64,000 bases of DNA, taken from Betaproteobacteria bacterium TMED82 (GTDB taxonomy: Bacteria; Pseudomonadota; Gammaproteobacteria; Burkholderiales; Burkholderiaceae_A). The stretch lies in the NCBI GenBank assembly GCA_002170395.1, contig NHEJ01000004.1:124001-188000 (forward strand), read 5' to 3'. This document shows positions 7,912 to 16,471 of the stretch, one piece after another. The position numbers were made by a program, and so were the translations under genes. Every line of letters begins with the position of its first letter. Positions within the stretch are counted from its first letter, which is position 1. Below the pieces are notes generated by a model that searched no databases, was not told the DNA's origin, and saw nothing but the letters and a program-made list of their open reading frames with translations.

Positions 7912-9756
7912 ATGTGTGGAATTTTTGCAGGTGTTAACGAAAATAATATAATTCCAAAAATCATTAGCGGTTTGAAAAAGCTCGAATATCGAGGATACGA
8001 TTCATCTGGTATAGCGTGGATAAAATCAAATATAGTTAAAAGAGATAGATCGGTAGGTAGAGTAAAAGAATTAGAGAAATTACTTGGAGCTGTATCTTCC
8101 AATATCGCTATCGGACATACTCGTTGGGCGACACATGGTGAGGTGAATAAAAAAAATGCTCATCCACACATGTCAAAAACAAAAGATTTATCAGTCTGTA
8201 TCGTGCACAACGGGATCGTAGAAAATTATTTGGATTTAAAAAAAGACCTACTCAAAGAAGGTTATAAATTTCACTCAGATACGGATACAGAAGTAGTCGC
8301 TCATCAGTTACACTTTGAAAGAAGAATTGCAGCCTCTCTTCCAATAGCTATAAATGCTTTAAGTAAAAAGTTAATTGGAGCATATGCATTAGTAGCGCTT
8401 AGTGATTTAGATTCAAACACTATTTGTGGTATTAAAAAAGGGGTGCCTTTAATCGTTGGGGGACCTGATATATTCAATGGTAATTTTTTTCTATCATCAG
8501 ACTTATCTGGTCTCATTACTTACTGTAAAAAGGTGGTTTTCCTAGATGACGAAGAAATTGTTGAGATTTCTCTGAATGAAGCTAAATTTTTTAATTCGAG
8601 AGGAATTAGGTTTAGGAAAAGAACAAATAAATTAAGCGTAAAACAAAATGAAAGTAATCTTGGACCATATACTCATTTCATGCAAAAAGAAATACATGAA
8701 CAGCCAGGCGCAGTCGCTGCGACATTGGAAACGATTGTATCGGCAAACTCACTCACACCAAATTTATTTGGACCATATGCCGCAAAATATTTTGAAAAAG
8801 TAAACTCTGTAACAGTCGTAGCCTGCGGAACAAGTTACCACGCAGGACTAGTTGCAAAATATTGGATTGAGGAGATAGCAGGACTACCCGTATCAGTTGA
8901 AATAGCGAGTGAATTCAGGTACCGGAAGAGTGTGATTTTACCTGATACTCTTTTTGTTGCTGTCTCTCAATCGGGTGAAACGGCTGATACCTTAGCTGCA
9001 GTTTATCTAGCAAAGACGCTAAAACTTTCGAGAACTTTAGCAATATGCAATGTTTCTGAGTCAACGCTAATTCGTGAATGTAAGATGTTTTTTCTTACTC
9101 GCGCTGGTCAAGAAATTGGTGTTGCTTCCACCAAAGCCTTCACAACGCAATTGGCAGCTTTGTTTGTACTTACGCTAGTACTTGCAAAAAGTAAAAATTT
9201 ATTAGATGGAAATAAAGAGCGAAACTTTCTTAATGAATTGAGGCATCTACCCAGCGCTTTAGCTGCAATTATTGCTGCTGAAAAGGATTTCAAAAAATGG
9301 ACAAAGTTTTTTAAGAAAAAGAAAAATGTCCTATTCTTAGGTAGAGGAATTCATAGTCCGATTGCGATGGAAGGAGCATTAAAGCTTAAAGAGATAAGCT
9401 ATATACATGCGGAAGCTTATGCAGCAGGGGAATTAAAACATGGCCCGTTGGCTCTCATTGATAAAGAGATGCCAATTATTGCTGTCGCTCCAAATGATGA
9501 GTTAGTAAATAAATTAAAAAATAATTTAGAAGAAGTGCGTGCAAGAGGGGGGAAATTATTTGTAATTGCTGATCTAGGTTCAGGGATCGATGAAAATAAA
9601 AATATCAAAGTTATTACTCTTGGTGACCATGTAGGGCACTTATCGCCTATACTTCACGTTATTCCACTTCAAATTCTTGCATATCATATAGCAGTATCGA
9701 GGGGTAACGATGTTGATCAGCCAAGAAATTTAGCAAAGAGTGTTACTGTAGAGTAG
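7912..9756 (+). CDS. glmS: Glutamine-fructose-6-phosphate aminotransferase (isomerizing)
   Basis: MCGIFAGV; LEYRGYDSSGIAW; SIS domains; intact terminus DQPRNLAKSVTVE-stop. Confidence 0.98.
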   Translation: MCGIFAGVNENNIIPKIISGLKKLEYRGYDSSGIAWIKSNIVKRDRSVGRVKELEKLLGAVSSNIAIGHTRWATHGEVNKKNAHPHMSKTKDLSVCIVHNGIVENYLDLKKDLLKEGYKFHSDTDTEVVAHQLHFERRIAASLPIAINALSKKLIGAYALVALSDLDSNTICGIKKGVPLIVGGPDIFNGNFFLSSDLSGLITYCKKVVFLDDEEIVEISLNEAKFFNSRGIRFRKRTNKLSVKQNESNLGPYTHFMQKEIHEQPGAVAATLETIVSANSLTPNLFGPYAAKYFEKVNSVTVVACGTSYHAGLVAKYWIEEIAGLPVSVEIASEFRYRKSVILPDTLFVAVSQSGETADTLAAVYLAKTLKLSRTLAICNVSESTLIRECKMFFLTRAGQEIGVASTKAFTTQLAALFVLTLVLAKSKNLLDGNKERNFLNELRHLPSALAAIIAAEKDFKKWTKFFKKKKNVLFLGRGIHSPIAMEGALKLKEISYIHAEAYAAGELKHGPLALIDKEMPIIAVAPNDELVNKLKNNLEEVRARGGKLFVIADLGSGIDENKNIKVITLGDHVGHLSPILHVIPLQILAYHIAVSRGNDVDQPRNLAKSVTVE

Positions 9757-9762
9757 ATAAAG
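9745..9762 (+). repeat. Left direct repeat (attL-like), last four glmS codons plus 6 nt
   Basis: ACTGTAGAGTAGATAAAG, identical to 14110-14127. Confidence 0.85.
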
Positions 9763-9773
9763 GTGTCTACTTT
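9758..9773 (+). repeat. Left terminal inverted repeat of E1
   Basis: TAAAGGTGTCTACTTT, perfect reverse complement of 14083-14098. Confidence 0.8.
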
Positions 9774-9788
9774 TCAAAAAAAATTAGT

Positions 9789-10097
9789 TTGAAATTTGTA
9801 GCAAGAGTTGAAACTAACAATCTTCTGTATCAAAAAGAAATTTCACAAAGACACATATTGTTATACAGAATTATAAAACATTTTAACGAAGAATTAAACA
9901 TTGGGCATAGAACAATTTGTTCAATTTTGAACAAACACGGAATAAGAACTCATCACGGAAAAAAGTGGAGTAAATCGGGCAGTTCATCATACAGCGTGAT
10001 TAAAAGAATGAACGAAAGAGAAGATAGAATAAAAAACGTGCGAAAGAAAAAGTTCGGAATACAAGTGAGCGATTTTGAGATAGTATTTAGCAATTGA
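9789..10097 (+). CDS. Small HTH-like/recombinase-C-terminal-like hypothetical protein (102 aa)
   Basis: NIGHRTICSILNKHGIRTHHGKKWSKSGSSSYSVIKR resembles the helix-turn-helix/tail segment of serine recombinases; no catalytic domain present. Confidence 0.55.
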   Translation: MKFVARVETNNLLYQKEISQRHILLYRIIKHFNEELNIGHRTICSILNKHGIRTHHGKKWSKSGSSSYSVIKRMNEREDRIKNVRKKKFGIQVSDFEIVFSN

Positions 10098-10236
10098 TAA
10101 GAAGATGTGATGTTCCTCGAAGCAAATAATCAGAGATGAATAACTGTTACTCATTCATCTGTAGTTGGGACTTTCGGACTGTTAATAAGCTAAGGTGAAG
10201 ATAAGATAAGAACTAATATTGATTTAAGTTGAAATT

Positions 10237-11256
10237 ATGAGATTTATAGGTTCTAAAAGATTGCTTCTTAAGAATATAGAGTATGTAATAAGTCAAAATA
10301 TTACAGAACATGAAAAATTAAATACTTTTTGTGATATTTTCTCAGGAACAACTATTGTTTCTCAATATTTTAAAAATAAATATAAAATAATCTCTAATGA
10401 TCTTTTATATTTTTCTTATTGTCTTCAAAAATCCTATGTAGAATTAAATCAAAAACCCAATTTTAAAAATTTAGATATGAGTTTGGAAGTAGAGGAATAT
10501 CTGAATAATCTTAGTTTTACACAAAAAGGTTTTATATTTAAAAATTATTCCCCGGGTGGAAAGGAAGATAGGAAATACTTATCAAAAGAAAATGCAACTA
10601 TTATCGATGGTTTAAGGGTTTGTTTTGAAAATTGGTTAAGCAAGAAGAAGATTAGTGATCTTGAATACTTTTATTTGGTGTCCTTAGTAATTGAAGCAAC
10701 TCCCTTTGTATCCAATATAGCAGGAACTTATGGCGCATATTTGAAGACATGGGACAAGAGAAGTTTTAAAAAAATTGAATTAAACCCCTTGAATATTATT
10801 GATAATAAAAAAAACAACAAAAGTTACAATGAAGATTGTAATAAGTTAATTAAAAAAATTGAGGGAGATATACTATATTTGGACCCGCCTTATAATAGCA
10901 GGCAATATTTGCCAAACTATCATTTGCTAGAAACAATTGCAAAATATGACGACCCAGTTATTAAAGGCAAAACTGGTATTAGAGAGTATAAAAATCAGAA
11001 ATCTGAATTTTACAACAAGTCTTTTGCTGAAGATGCTTTGGAAAGTCTGATTGAAAATGCAAAATTTAAATATATTGTTTTAAGTTATAACTCAGAAGGA
11101 ATTATCCCTGAAGCAAAATTAGAAAGATTAATGAGAAAATATTCAAAGAATGTTTTTAATAAATACAAAATTAATTATAGAAGATATAAGAAAGATAGAA
11201 AAACGAGTGATAAAGAAAAACTTTATGAACTCATTCATATAATAGACAAAGAATAA
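10237..11256 (+). CDS. DNA adenine methyltransferase, D12 class-like
   Basis: MRFIGSKRLLLKNI, FCDIFSGTTIVSQYF (FxGxG-like motif I), ILYLDPPYNSRQYLPNYHLLETIAKYD (motif IV DPPY). Confidence 0.85.
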   Translation: MRFIGSKRLLLKNIEYVISQNITEHEKLNTFCDIFSGTTIVSQYFKNKYKIISNDLLYFSYCLQKSYVELNQKPNFKNLDMSLEVEEYLNNLSFTQKGFIFKNYSPGGKEDRKYLSKENATIIDGLRVCFENWLSKKKISDLEYFYLVSLVIEATPFVSNIAGTYGAYLKTWDKRSFKKIELNPLNIIDNKKNNKSYNEDCNKLIKKIEGDILYLDPPYNSRQYLPNYHLLETIAKYDDPVIKGKTGIREYKNQKSEFYNKSFAEDALESLIENAKFKYIVLSYNSEGIIPEAKLERLMRKYSKNVFNKYKINYRRYKKDRKTSDKEKLYELIHIIDKE

Positions 11257-12383
11257 TGAACTTAATTGATAAAAAAAAACTTTGGGAAGTGTTAGAAGCA
11301 AAATTATCAAATAATGATATTGATGAAGTAAGTAATGAAATTCTTAGAAAAGTTAATGAACTAAAAAAGAGGAAAAAGAATAAAAAAAGAAGAGAACAAT
11401 TAGATCTACTTGCAAAGAAATATGATTTAAATATTCTTAGTAATGAACAAATTATCAAAATACCCAAGTGGATTAAAAAGGATTTGAAGAGTTGTAAAGT
11501 AGTAAGTAATTCGAAGAAAGTAATTTTAACTAAAAATGGGCAAAAATATCACCTTGATAACAAGTTAAATGATTTAGCAGGAAACGAGTGGAGTTATTTT
11601 TTAAGGTCTGTAATTAACACAAGGTATTTAACTTCTGGCGAAGAAGGATATGCACATCATATAAGAAAGATACATCCTTCACCAAAACCGCCACAATTGA
11701 TGAGAGATATAATTAAATTTTTTACTAAAGAAAATGAATATATTTTAGATTATTTTATGGGTGTTGGCGGAACATTGCTTGGAGCATCATTGTCGAGCAG
11801 AAATGCTTTAGGAATAGATTTAAGTTCTAAGTTTATTAGTGCGTATAAAAAAGCAAATAAGGAATTAAAGCTCAAAGAACAAACTACAATAAAAGGTGAT
11901 TGTATAGAAATACTTAAAAACAAAAGGTATATTGAGGACTATTTAAATAATAAAAAATTCTCATTAATTGCACTAGACCCTCCATACGGAGACATGATGA
12001 ATAGAGAGAAAACTGGAGAAACAATAAAAAAAGGGCAGTCAAAAGATGCAACACCATTTACAAAAAATAAAAAAGATCTTGGGAACATGAATTGGTTAGA
12101 ATTTAGAGAGAAATTCATTGAAACAATCAAGTATTCAATGCCTTACTTAAAGGACAAGGGACACTATGTTGTCTTTATTAAAGATCTACAACCAAAAAAA
12201 GGTAAAACTAATTTATTACATTCAGATCTGATTGAAGAAATTAATAAAATTGAATGTTTAAATTATATTGGTATGAAAATTTGGGCAGATGAGTCTATTA
12301 ATTTATATCCCTATGGATATCCTCATAGTTTTGTTTCTAATCAAATCCATCAATATATAATGTTTTTTAGAAAGAAAAGTTAA
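11256..12383 (+). CDS. Site-specific DNA methyltransferase (N4/N6 family)
   Basis: KIHPSPKPPQLMRDIIKFF, ILDYFMGVGGTLLGASLSSRNALGIDLS, LIALDPPYGDMM; TAATG overlap with the preceding gene. Confidence 0.87.
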   Translation: MNLIDKKKLWEVLEAKLSNNDIDEVSNEILRKVNELKKRKKNKKRREQLDLLAKKYDLNILSNEQIIKIPKWIKKDLKSCKVVSNSKKVILTKNGQKYHLDNKLNDLAGNEWSYFLRSVINTRYLTSGEEGYAHHIRKIHPSPKPPQLMRDIIKFFTKENEYILDYFMGVGGTLLGASLSSRNALGIDLSSKFISAYKKANKELKLKEQTTIKGDCIEILKNKRYIEDYLNNKKFSLIALDPPYGDMMNREKTGETIKKGQSKDATPFTKNKKDLGNMNWLEFREKFIETIKYSMPYLKDKGHYVVFIKDLQPKKGKTNLLHSDLIEEINKIECLNYIGMKIWADESINLYPYGYPHSFVSNQIHQYIMFFRKKS

Positions 12384-12417
12384 CTCTATTTTTAATAGAT
12401 TAAATTGTTTTCTTTAT

Positions 12418-13729
12418 CTATTTGAAATCTATTTTATCAATGTTAGTCTTTTCTCCACCATTTATAACTAAACTTCTTTTATATTTATATTCTGGATAAT
12501 GCTTACTTAGAAATTTTTTTTCAAATAGATCAAAATGTTTTATTTCATCTAAACCTTTATAAATTGCATTAAATTTTTTACCTTCGAATTGATAAATTAC
12601 TTTATTTTTATCATCTCTCATTACTAGATCTGGGATCTTACCCCCATCTGCTGAAAATTTTTTGTCAATTTTAATTTCATGATTATATTTATTATAAAAA
12701 TAACTTTTTTCACAACCTCCATGATTGTCGAATATTGTAACTAAGTTATTATTCTCAAAATAATGAAAAAGTATGGTTGCGACTTTCTCTTTATTTGTTT
12801 CAAATCCCCAATAATCAAAATTAAACTTTGAATTTGGTAATTTGCAATTGTCTAACTCAAATTTTATAAAATTTGCAAGATTAACAAATTTGTTTATACC
12901 AATTCTATCTTGTAGAACTTGGTAATTGATGACAATGATTTTTTTAGTCCAGCCTAAACCTCTTATTACCTTTGCAATTAAAGGTATTTGACCCATATTA
13001 GGATCGTGGCCAATCCTACCTGTATAGTTTTTGTTGTTATTATTTGGATTTGCTAAAAGTGCTGAGATTTTAATCGCATTTTTTTCTTTTAAAATTCTAA
13101 TTGGTGTATCGTTTTTTCTAGTATTAGTATCTGCTATTTGATATTTTATTTTTATAAATTCGTCTAATGATTGGAATTTCTTGAAATTTGAGCTATTTTT
13201 TCCCCAAAACTCAATTCCACACTCAAGATGATATAGGGATCTATTAATAAAATTTACAGATTGATGATCTTCGTCTGCTTGTTTGTGAGAAGAAACCTTA
13301 CAGGTTTAGTTAATGCCTTATATTTTTGAATATAATAATTTAGGGTATTAAATTTACTTGACCTTTGCCCCATTGCAGTATTACGGGAGTCATATGAGTT
13401 AGTTTTAGTCTCCTCTATCGCAAAAATACAATTTTTTAAAATCTGTTCAGGACAAGGTTCATCTTTTTGAAGAAAAACTAAAAAATCGACAAAACTAGAT
13501 TTGCTAGATATCAATTTAATATAAATATTTTTAATTTGATGTGAATTTACATCTGAGATTTGAAAGATATGTAGAAATTTATTGTTCTCAATTATTGGAT
13601 TAATTTTGAAATATTAATAACAATATTTAGGTTTTTATTATAACTTGATTCCTCTATGATTTTTTTAATTACTTTCTTTTTGGGTCTTTCCTCAATTAGA
13701 ATCCATAGATTATTATCAATGTTTTTCAT
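12418..13729 (-). pseudogene. Restriction-endonuclease-like gene in three frames (two -1 frameshifts)
   Basis: Three consecutive minus-strand frames: 13729-13592 (MKNIDNNLWILIEERPKKK...), 13613-13254 (...IFAIEETKTNSYDSRNTAMGQRSSKF...), 13305-12418 (...FWGKNSSN...GRIGHDPNMGQIPLIAKVIRGLGW...GGKIPDLVMRDDKNKVIYQFEGKKF); candidate PD-(D/E)xK motifs EETK or PDLV...FEGK; convergent to the methyltransferases. Confidence 0.7.
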
Positions 13730-14067
13730 AAAATAAATATAGCAAGTTCTTTAATATATTAAAACCGAAATTTTATTTTTTTCTATTATTAAAATGTTAA
13801 TCGCCGGATTTTTTTTGCACCATCTGTATTTGTTATAGTTAACAAAACAAATGGGGTTATTCACATATTAAAGAATTGTGGAATATCTAAATGGAAAAAA
13901 ATTGCTTTAGGTTTTGGGTTTAGTCAAGTCTATACATTACCTCTTTTTGGAGGTATTTTGTTTCTATTTAGACCTACTTCTTTTTGTTATCAAAATTGGT
14001 AAGAGTAAAGGTATAACTGTTAAACTAGGCAGAAGTGTGAAAAAAAAACTTTTGGGAAGTCAGATAA

Positions 14068-14114
14068 GGTCTCAGTTTAATGAAAGTAGACACCTTTACA
14101 CACTCAATGACTGT
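14068..14114 (+). repeat. Right-end unit R1 (ends in glmS-tail-like codons)
   Basis: 40/47 identical by eye to 14766-14812: kTCTCAGTTkAATGrAAGTrGAyACCTTTACACACTCwATGACTrT. Confidence 0.8.
14083..14098 (-). repeat. Right terminal inverted repeat of E1
   Basis: AAAGTAGACACCTTTA, reverse complement of 9758-9773. Confidence 0.8.
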
Positions 14115-14127
14115 AGAGTAGATAAAG
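14110..14127 (+). repeat. Right direct repeat (attR-like), second copy of the glmS tail
   Basis: ACTGTAGAGTAGATAAAG; reads T-V-E-stop as in glmS. Confidence 0.85.
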
Positions 14128-14381
14128 TTTCTACTAAACCCTATAAAAAAAATTATTTGTCAAAAAAAAATTTGAGGGTAATAGAGAGTGATTGAATGAG
14201 AAAAAATTGGTGATGATTTGTGAATTATCTTAATACTTCAAAATAAAAAAAAATTTACAAAAAGAAATATTGCTAGTGCAAAGAGTCAAGAAATAAAATC
14301 TATCACTCTCCTTTTGCTTAAAGCATTGGGTTCACTTTGAAAAAATAAATTATCATTAGAGTATAACTAAAAACCTTTTTC

Positions 14382-14490
14382 CCAGATTACTATATTAAAA
14401 TTGACGGGCCAAGGATAATTATCGAAGTTGAAAGAGGTCAACTACTCAGAATAATGGTGCGCTCAAAAATCTGTGGAAAGAAAATATTTG
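14382..14490 (+). pseudogene. Relic of a PD-(D/E)xK-like nuclease-family ORF
   Basis: PDYYIKIDGPRIIIEVERGQ, then after a frame change TTQNNGALKNLWKENI-stop; no intact ORF. Confidence 0.45.
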
Positions 14491-14765
14491 AGATAAAGCA
14501 AATGGCTTTATTTTATTTTTTACAGTAATCTTAGTGCAAAAAAATACGGAATTGTTAAAGAAAGACCTATCGAATAGTCTGTAAATCAACTTTCAACTTT
14601 TTTCGAAACAGAGGATCATACAGACGTTAAAAAACTAATAATAATTGGTTAGTTGTACTTTATGAGAAAAACACTTTGCAACAAGATATTTAAAACGGGC
14701 AAGATTGAAACTTAACCTGTTATGATAAGTAAAATAATAAGAAAAAGTTTATGTAACTCAAGTAG

Positions 14766-14812
14766 AGTCTCAGTTGAATGGAAGTGGATACCTTTACACA
14801 CTCTATGACTAT
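14766..14812 (+). repeat. Right-end unit R2, diverged copy of R1
   Basis: 40/47 identical to 14068-14114; followed by ATC GAA TAA so the end reads S-M-T-I-E-stop. Confidence 0.78.
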
Positions 14813-14938
14813 CGAATAAGTTGTTGCTTCTATTCAATAAAAATACCGTTTAAACCTACAAAACAAGTATTTCTGAAGGGCTGTAGTGCTGATCTTGCTA
14901 AATTTATCGGTTCAAATGTATTTAAGTGAATTTTTGAA

Positions 14939-15214
14939 ATGTCCATCTTAATCAAAAAACGAAATGATGATGTTTTCGAGGTCACTGTAGTAGACACCAT
15001 CACCACCACACATGCGGTGACGGTTACAAACATGAGTCTCACTGACCTTACTAAAAATAATATTACTAAAGCAGAATTGTTGGACTTTTCTTTCAAATTC
15101 CTTCTAGATAGAGAACCAAATACCTCAATTTTATCTTCGTTCGATATCAATGTAATATCGGAGTACTTCTCTGATTACAAAGATGAAGTAAGGCGATGGT
15201 GTAATGAGAGTTAG
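14939..15214 (+). CDS. Conserved-looking hypothetical protein (91 aa)
   Basis: Soluble acidic ORF FEVTVVDTITTTHAVTV...LLDFSFKFLLDREPNTSILSSFDINVISEYFSDYKDEVRRW; plausible composition, 4-codon overlap with the next frame. Confidence 0.65.
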   Translation: MSILIKKRNDDVFEVTVVDTITTTHAVTVTNMSLTDLTKNNITKAELLDFSFKFLLDREPNTSILSSFDINVISEYFSDYKDEVRRWCNES

Positions 15215-15393
15215 AACCAAAGAATGCCATATGTGTAATCACTCAAAGGAGGTGCTATATCGATGTAGATACCGAGATGTGAAGCGATTGGGTGTTTTTC
15301 TGTGGGAAGTGTCTGACGGACGTTAAATCGAGTTATGAAGGAACGTATCAATACGGTGGAACTTGGAAGAGTAAAAAGAAGAAACCTCTCTAA
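15204..15393 (+). pseudogene. Small 4-Cys zinc-ribbon-like protein with a single-base frameshift
   Basis: MRVRTKECHMCNHSKEVLYRCRYRDVKRLGVF / CGKCLTDVKSSYEGTYQYGGTWKSKKKKPL-stop; frames join if one T is removed from the TTTTT run near 15297-15301. Confidence 0.55.
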
Positions 15394-15490
15394 CTTGATC
15401 TTTTAGAACCAGAGTTGATTATAGAAGTATCTGCTTCAATAGCTTTGCACTCACCAATGTCGGTTCGATTAATTTGTTCGCCCAATTCTA

Positions 15491-15832
15491 TCATTTACGG
15501 ACCAGCGGTTCTATTTCTATCGTATGAGAGAGACTCTCTTGAGACTCTAAGAATAATATTTGCAACTTCGCCTGGTTCTTTAATATTGATCTAAGAGGGT
15601 GTGATAACGTTTCTAAATTTGTTTTTCCCGGAATCTTTCCGTCTTTACCTGAGAATTTATATTCCGAAACACCGTTTTTCATATCGATAATGAAACTATT
15701 TTTCCACTCAAGACCATCAAACTTATACTCGTATTCGAGACCGACATATTCAGCAGAAAAGCACCACTCAAAGCAGTTAAAAATAATATTGTCTTTATTT
15801 AACTTTTTATACTCGTACACTGCTCCTAACAA
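15491..15832 (-). CDS. Hypothetical protein (113 aa), possibly a fragment
   Basis: ORF only; no recognisable motif; upstream sequence on the same strand contains further broken frames. Confidence 0.4.
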   Translation of the reverse strand: MLGAVYEYKKLNKDNIIFNCFEWCFSAEYVGLEYEYKFDGLEWKNSFIIDMKNGVSEYKFSGKDGKIPGKTNLETLSHPLRSILKNQAKLQILFLESQESLSHTIEIEPLVRK

Positions 15833-15874
15833 TTTATTCTCATCTCTACCAATAAATTTTAGTAGTTTTTAAAA

Positions 15875-16109
15875 TTATTTAATCTGGAAAAAGTTAACCA
15901 AAGTCTTATGCGCCACCTCTATACTGGAATCAGACCAAACTGTTGGATGCTCTCGGTTCAGCAATACTTCCTTTATTAATCTCTTTTTCAAGATTGAATA
16001 ACCGTATAAGGATACCGTAAAATAGGTTTAAATGATGATAAAGTCCCGAAAAATTTTCAGCATCATCTTTTTTTTCAGTGACTTTTTCTGCAAAGTGGTT
16101 TTTTAATTC
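15875..16109 (-). pseudogene. Relic ORF in two frames
   Basis: ELKNHFAEKVTEKKDDAENFSGLYHHLNLFYGILIRLFNLEKEINKGSIAEP then, in another frame, NREHPTVWSDSSIEVAHKTLVNFFQIK-stop. Confidence 0.35.
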
Positions 16110-16471
16110 TATAACCGTCCAATTCGGTCACAATCTAAAAAATAGGTTCATGATCAAATTAAATCCCTTAAGAACTCTAGAATAAAATACAAACTAATTG
16201 AAAAACATCTCAACGCGTTTGAAGTTAAAACTTTTTGACGAAAAAAAAGGAGCGTAACAAAGTTTATTCTGTTCTGAAAATAAATGAGGAACAATTGAAC
16301 AGTTTAGATGTTGAAAGGCTAAGATCAGAAATTGACCATAGCAAACCGAAATTAATTTGGTTAAGAGAGGGACATTCTAAGTCGGATATAAAATAGGTGA
16401 ATAATTTAGAAAATTAATCAATTGACCTAATCTATCCATATAAATCTACCGAGGTAAAAAAAAATTTCTCC

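Follow-up and report, generated by a model that had tools for sequence, protein, structure and literature searches.

The 3′ end of glmS in the window (the whole stretch of 64,000 nucleotides analysed, from a small-genome marine Burkholderiales bacterium) very probably carries two non-autonomous integrative cassettes, E1 and E2, brought into the last codons of the gene by successive conservative site-specific recombination of the large serine recombinase (LSR) type. Two site-specific insertions appear to be stacked there, E1 at 9747–14111 and E2 at 14112–14809, and each cassette evidently supplies the last three codons of glmS and shifts the old ones rightward. The features of the locus are as follows.

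7912–9756, + strand: glmS, an open reading frame with Pfam SIS and GATase domains, whose last 10 bases (9747–9756, TGTAGAGTAG) would come from E1.
9745–9746, + strand: crossover AC at the glmS/E1 junction, placed by mapping AC in recurring cassettes.
9747–14111, + strand: putative cassette E1, from AC to AC, with restriction-modification cargo between its left end (LE1) and right end (RE1).
9757–9773, + strand: outer arm of LE1, +11 to +27 from AC, pairing at 16/17 positions with the RE1 arm.
9756–10097, + strand: HTH protein rec102, open from the crossover, with a possible TTG start at 9789.
10237–11256, + strand: D12-class adenine DNA methyltransferase of a type II restriction-modification system (PF02086, E 2.5e-39; PADLOC MTase_II).
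11256–12383, + strand: second type II DNA methyltransferase (PF01555, E 2.6e-20; PADLOC MTase_II, E 2.3e-130).
12418–13740, − strand: gene for a type II restriction endonuclease, broken, with its coding sequence split between at least two frames; 12418–12996 corresponds to residues 263–445 of 465 of PADLOC REase_II (C-terminal part).
13914–14111, + strand: open frame on the RE1 side with an LSR-like C-terminal tail (GKSKGITVKLGRSVKKK...), 10/15 identities with the LSR tail of viral contigs L251/L274.
14083–14099, + strand: outer arm of RE1, with the central AC at 14110–14111.
14112–14809, + strand: putative cassette E2, decayed, delimited by the repeat, the arm pairing and the left-end match.
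14382–14539, + strand: E2 cargo remnant, a broken homologue of the L159 gene (tblastn E 5e-6, 47% over 36 aa), with broken frames.
14781–14797, + strand: outer arm of RE2, with the central AC at 14808–14809, pairing at 13/17 positions with LE1.
14810–14819, + strand: TATCGAATAA, apparently the displaced and drifted original glmS end (T-V-E to T-I-E; GTCGAATAA/GTCGAATAG in relatives of the family).

The right end of E1 (14068–14114) is repeated at 14766–14812 with 40 of 47 identities and no gap, as the preliminary description had reported, and the runner-up in the 64 kb window, with both strands searched, reaches 26/47. Only two copies of this 47-bp unit are present in the 1.58 Mb genome. The tails were also found as first written, TCAATGACTGTAGAGTAG at the first copy and TCTATGACTATCGAATAA at the second, with ACTGTAGAGTAG directly after the first right end and ACTATCGAATAA after the second. 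The left and right ends of E1 are inverted repeats of each other (TAAAGGTGTCTACTTT and GAAAGTAGACACCTTTA, respectively). The likeness to this left end that had been proposed 3′ of the first copy (TAAAG-TTTCTACT) does exist, though it is weak: over its first 62 bases, E2 agrees at 77% with the left end of one SAR86 cassette (E = 0.003), while the pairing of the arms about AC, which is 16/17 for LE1/RE1 and 13/17 for RE2/LE1, is only 6/17 for LE2/RE2. The left end of E2 is partly eroded, E2 is decayed, and its end family is the same as that of E1.

The proposed order of glmS, E1, end, E2, end, with successive displacement of the terminus, gains support from relatives in the genus and from the cassette arrays of SAR86. 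The relatives found by pattern were uncultured beta proteobacterium AH-287-N17 and AG-913-B20, Betaproteobacteria bacterium AH-736-P17 and Burkholderiaceae bacterium MED-G174. In all six genus relatives with a readable end, glmS closes with ...S-V-T-V-E and a similar left end stands immediately behind it, within the conserved order glmS, variable stretch, ampG, M48 peptidase, exoA, pyrE and gatB. One relative (G004) harbors a mini-element of 187 bp and, behind it, a displaced GACAGTCGAATAA, which reads T-V-E in family-typical codons, and the displaced host end is therefore taken as T-V-E; another (G003) has a stacked pair of its own, in which a right end abuts another left end. The glmS–ampG interval of two relatives (L033 and L035 of G001 and G003, respectively) also contains nth-like, photolyase-related and yjbQ-like genes, which the window lacks there. 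In the window, the stretch from E2 to ampG (14820–16470) contains two ORFs of just 91 and 113 aa, neither of which matches a known family, and could be made up of older eroded cassettes or remnants of chromosomal genes.

The claim that both tails were once real glmS termini stands in a narrower form. TGTAGAGTAG would have arrived with E2 and been displaced by E1, and TATCGAATAA would be the host's own end. The S-M of "S-M-T", which had been counted as glmS, belongs to the right arm of the element, with former glmS codons lying only to the right of AC, and T-I-E was not found as a true glmS variant. All intact glmS ends read (about 140) are T-V-E, so that T-I-E is best explained as a displaced, untranslated T-V-E in which GTC GAA TAA drifted by one base (ATC versus GTC). 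The lack of a T-I-E glmS among relatives, which had been offered as grounds for rejecting the stack, therefore does not refute it, since T-I-E would be a decay product of T-V-E.

The position of the crossover was deduced from recurring cassettes. At the left end, the base right of AC is nearly always constant with the cassette and the base left of AC varies, while at the right end the base left of AC is constant and the base right of AC varies. This opposite segregation of the flanking bases points to an exchange within the two bases of AC. The crossover is thus placed in the invariant AC of the Thr codon, ...TCN-GTN-AC/N-GTN-GAR-TAR (exchange within AC), and the sequence right of AC at a left junction and that left of AC at a right junction belong to the same incoming cassette. 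The inner right end, which is untranslated, still keeps A.TC.GT.AC with its wobble positions free, and the core matches the conserved glmS codons irrespective of codon choice.

When the right end of a cassette is set before its left end, in the order of a circle, bases at equal distance are complementary at 11 to 27 from AC. The complementarity is seen in exact register only, with an excess of 0.199 at shift 0 and ≤0.021 at the other shifts from −3 to +4, and all four pair types are used at nearly all arm positions. The two ends of a cassette form 10.4/17 pairs on average, against a permutation maximum of 7.3 (p ≤ 0.0005), and the 113 cassettes with ≥13/17 pairs represent 21 arm types. Pairing stays below 12/17 in about half of the cassettes, from decay, missed junctions or other reasons. 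The joined ends of a cassette tend to a palindrome of ~54 bp centred exactly on AC, with arm sequences that vary among cassettes, and the junctions within arrays, where different cassettes meet, are not palindromic (mean 6.7/17, like random pairs). Both a 2-bp crossover at a central dinucleotide and an attP of ~50 bp with dyad symmetry, the marks of LSR-type recombination, were thus observed.

SAR86 bacteria are among the most abundant uncultured bacteria of the surface ocean, with small genomes and few mobile elements. The left-end pattern GAGTAGNTNAARRTGTCTACTT gave eight matches in GTDB genomes, four in the genus relatives, three in SAR86 (Gammaproteobacteria) and one unrelated, and seven of them, those of the four relatives and of the three SAR86 genomes, lie directly at the glmS stop codon; the three SAR86 genomes carry an identical left end at glmS. 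The SAR86 order was represented by 204 genomes, of which glmS was obtained in 158 and the downstream DNA was analysed for 110. A strict junction motif derived from glmS itself, GTNACNGTNGAR plus stop codon, occurs 247 times on the glmS strand in 1.48 Mb of this downstream DNA, once on the opposite strand and not at all after shuffling. At least one extra copy was found in 94 of the 110 genomes, with a maximum of nine. The 247 elements fall into 177 types, and the 241 cassettes analysed range from 60 to 4500 bp, with a median of 629 bp; three quarters of their length is coding, and ~85% of the coding length runs in the direction of glmS. Most SAR86 genomes examined thus carry apparently undescribed cassette arrays at glmS. 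In a shallow survey of 369 Gammaproteobacteria outside SAR86, which used a slightly different pattern that misses the window itself, ≥3 core copies were found in one 1.3-Mb genome only. Three genomes (L201, L204 and L205) have their first cassette in common and differ behind it, suggesting that arrays do not change by addition on the glmS side alone.

The cargo of the cassettes is rich in restriction-modification genes, such as HNH and MvaI/BcnI-type endonucleases, Mrr, and C5 and N4/N6 methylases, and further includes a Druantia-type methylase, PDC candidates and metabolic genes. Restriction-modification cargo at the glmS site is also seen in other lineages, with an Eco57I-like gene in the relative G003 (L035, 11075–12073), an apparent type III system in L106 and an apparent type I system in viral contig L264. 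In E1, both methyltransferases are intact and the restriction enzyme is broken over several frames, as in decaying selfish restriction-modification systems. A SAR86 cassette contains the intact form (L159; 178 aa, without an assigned function) of the gene whose broken homologue persists in E2.

No LSR domain was detected in the window genome or in 197 of the 204 SAR86 genomes, of which incomplete ones could hide some, and no serine recombinase domain was detected in 15 of 16 tested genomes of the two lineages. Most of the SAR86 genomes among these 16 encode just two tyrosine recombinases, presumably XerC and XerD. Complete elements were nevertheless found. The first glmS element of SAR86 genome G560 (L136) is complete at 6047 bp, with a 551-aa LSR at its right end and an HTH gene at its left end, and the PF00239 match of G560 lies within this element; such an autonomous form is rare, an LSR inside a glmS element being found in one of the 204 SAR86 genomes. 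Two viral contigs, L251 and L274, are integrated at the ends of two different glmS genes. Their left ends carry an HTH ORF, and their right ends encode LSRs of 556 and 554 aa, respectively, which are 95% alike. Among the viral contigs scanned with the core was also L259, a free form of 7.4 kb, in which the palindromic site lies inside the gene for a 733-aa LSR, so that a fused LSR-HTH gene contains attP; the other viral-contig matches to the core pattern were dismissed as integrated glmS ends or chance. The attP of L259 (3973–3995) sits in the middle of the fused gene, in the orientation opposite to that of the window. The LSRs of L251 and L259 contain PF00239, PF07508 and a Zn ribbon (Resolvase, Recombinase and zinc-ribbon domains), the autonomous LSRs match a PHROG integrase at E 1e-75 or better, and their PDB relatives are the YokA, TP901-1 and A118 integrases.

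L251 and L136 also encode a small HxH protein as in rolling-circle Rep proteins (weak Pfam match for L251, E 0.0019; 8310–8819, − strand), a hint that the autonomous elements pass through a replicating stage like that of a plasmid or satellite. Two SAR86 LSRs located away from glmS (L283, 1462–3039; L284, 322–1881) end in similar peptides, VELRGIEPRTPCLQSRCSPS and VELGGIEPPTSCVPRKRSPS, that resemble translated tRNA-gene DNA; here too, the LSR gene may possibly contain the att site, with a tRNA gene as the target in place of glmS.

E1 and E2 carry no LSR, which is present in L136, L251, L274 and L259, and retain only a tail and the HTH part, so that they are regarded as derivatives rather than full LSR-type integrative elements. 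The 102-aa ORF beside LE1 (rec102) is 38–44% identical to ORFs near the left ends of seven SAR86 cassettes, and all eight give weak matches to the Pfam Recombinase family (best 2.2e-5). The profile of this HTH family matches the C-terminus of the L259 LSR (E 3e-10), the HTH of L251 (5e-9) and also that of L136. The HTH frame is open from the crossover for ≥100 codons in nine of nine HTH elements and in E1, whereas the median in 123 other cassettes is 15 codons. The joined ends of E1 read KSKGITVKLGRSVKKKLLGSQIRSQFNESRHLYTLND up to the junction and CRVDKGVYFSKKISLKFVARVETNN... behind it, without a stop, and KSKGITVKLGRSVKKKLLGSQIRSQFNESRHLYTLND is similar to the LSR tail KSKGYTIKKGRKTKK over a short stretch of 15 residues (E 0.01 against a tiny database). 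The open frame across the joined ends, together with the likeness to an LSR tail, places attP inside a gene that would run from the LSR, or from just behind it, into the HTH. Judged from these frames and similarities, rec102 is most plainly the beheaded 3′ part of an attP-spanning gene cut by integration, and E1 appears as the relic of an LSR element, with the HTH at LE1, an LSR-like tail at RE1 and the catalytic half lost. By its own sequence, rec102 has no relatives in viral contigs, phages or plasmids; the idea that it is a phage protein was set aside, and its relatives came to light solely by way of the core pattern and the SAR86 cassettes. A fold search with the HTH model (pLDDT 78) gave no significant match, with resolvases and recombinases among the best weak ones, and a PDB profile search with the HTH family gave no match.

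Under the LSR reading, an incoming cassette would be exchanged within AC, keeping the protein end of glmS while the old end moves to the right; E2 would have entered first and E1 later, between glmS and E2. Because most host genomes lack an LSR, we infer that autonomous elements or viruses supply the LSRs that move the cassettes in trans. Each arm family would match its own LSR. The ≥21 arm families on one target are unusual for the sites of one LSR and count against the LSR reading. The cutting of the HTH gene may help to make integration one-way, and E1 would have lost its catalytic LSR, in place of which it carries a type II restriction-modification set. We lean, by a small degree, towards a wider picture as well, in which SAR86 and co-occurring marine Burkholderiales share a common pool of small cassettes that form arrays in the glmS end and depend on serine recombinases acting in trans. 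Such a pool would be a functional counterpart to integrons that relies on an enzyme of another class, with a codon-degenerate core, paired arms of free sequence and the HTH cut as a one-way switch.

The mover might instead be a tyrosine recombinase, be it XerC/XerD of the host or an integrase of the integron kind that acts on folded single strands, glmS then being an attI-like platform. Most of the SAR86 array genomes searched hold just the two tyrosine recombinases and no serine recombinase, and the arms vary while their complementarity is kept, as in attC hairpins. However, the opposite segregation of the bases flanking AC leaves room for a 2-bp exchange and not for an overlap of 6–8 bp, the complete elements at the glmS site encode LSRs, and no integrase family is among the Pfam matches shown for 142 cassette proteins. 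The palindrome is, moreover, centred on the crossover, whereas that of attC is entirely contained in one cassette end; with array junctions that are not palindromic, this geometry ruled out integron attC sites as such, and a tyrosine recombinase as the mover is considered unlikely overall.

Transposons with terminal inverted repeats (TIRs), Tn7-like or casposon-like, inserted beside glmS would account for the inverted ends and for the repeated core, which would then be a 12-bp target duplication, and Tn7 is known to use the glmS end. Tn7 inserts outside glmS, however, without replacing codons, and a duplication would be equal on both sides at insertion. The recurring 128-aa cassette keeps CTGTCGAGTAG at its left almost unchanged, while the right-hand copy varies by genome, and no transposase family is among the Pfam matches shown for the 142 cassette proteins. 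Transposition of the Tn7 or TIR kind with target duplication was ruled out as a candidate by the base segregation about AC, and we regard such transposons as a very improbable source of the cassettes. An unrelated intergenic repeat, which the preliminary description had named as its own counter-case, or a local duplication without any mobile element would fit the short and decayed E2, but the unit has only two genomic copies, both at a glmS-type junction, is conserved at this gene both within the genus and in SAR86, occurring across lineages only at glmS junctions, and shows exact symmetry about AC; the chance of this reading is put at next to nothing. LSR-type insertion thus remains the preferred reading.

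A search of the open-access literature on glmS with SAR86, cassettes or large serine recombinase returned nothing relevant and, to judge from that literature, the glmS cassette system has apparently not been described. If the reading is true, glmS would offer a fixed, gene-safe site at which restriction-modification and other small genes are rapidly exchanged, also across orders, as a main route of gene flow for the SAR86 genomes. The cassette arrays would serve as a marker readable from any genome by one motif, the sites as a natural LSR set aimed at a universal coding sequence despite codon choice, and the attP-in-gene arrangement as a switch that is open to testing.

Several known systems resemble the glmS cassettes in part. 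The SCC/ECC elements are inserted by an LSR at the 3′ end of rlmH, with att sites of ~50 bp and dyad symmetry in the circle, and have highly variable cargo and remnants without recombinase (PMC6222049). The glmS cassettes share the 3′ end of a conserved gene as target, the dyad att, the variable cargo and the recombinase-free remnants, and the circular dyad att and composite tandem islands of SCC/ECC also have their counterparts here, the circle being a presumed stage. In contrast to SCC/ECC, with rlmH and CcrAB, the target is glmS and no ccrAB-like pair is present in L136, L251 or L259; the cassettes are mostly <1.3 kb and recombinase-free, stand in arrays of up to nine with their own arm sequence each, have an HTH gene spanning attP, and reside in marine Gammaproteobacteria (SAR86 and Burkholderiales).

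Integron cassettes are likewise tandem arrays of one or two genes on a fixed platform, mostly in one orientation, and the sequence of attC varies while its base pairing is kept. The glmS arrays, however, have no IntI, only presumed Xer-type PF00589 proteins being present in most array genomes and none shown among the cassette proteins; their platform consists of glmS codons, the crossover lies at the centre of the palindrome, the arms lie at opposite cassette ends, and the linked recombinase is a serine recombinase. The use of the glmS end is shared with Tn7 (attTn7), but Tn7 transposes by a DDE mechanism to a position outside the gene and leaves a short target duplication, which was not seen here, the left and right copies differing by origin. 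In mycobacteriophages such as BPs, attP is inside a gene that is truncated upon integration (PMC9262239). This integration-dependent immunity resembles the glmS elements in having attP in a gene that integration truncates, although BPs uses a tyrosine integrase, a tRNA target and a repressor that loses its 3′ end, whereas the glmS elements use a serine recombinase and glmS as the target, and the HTH gene loses its 5′ end. With the TP901-1, A118 and SPbeta YokA integrases, the autonomous glmS elements share the Resolvase, Recombinase and zinc-ribbon domains, a 2-bp central dinucleotide and a dyad attP of ~50 bp, and they differ from these in that an HTH gene, next to the LSR or fused with it, contains attP and that most elements are non-autonomous.
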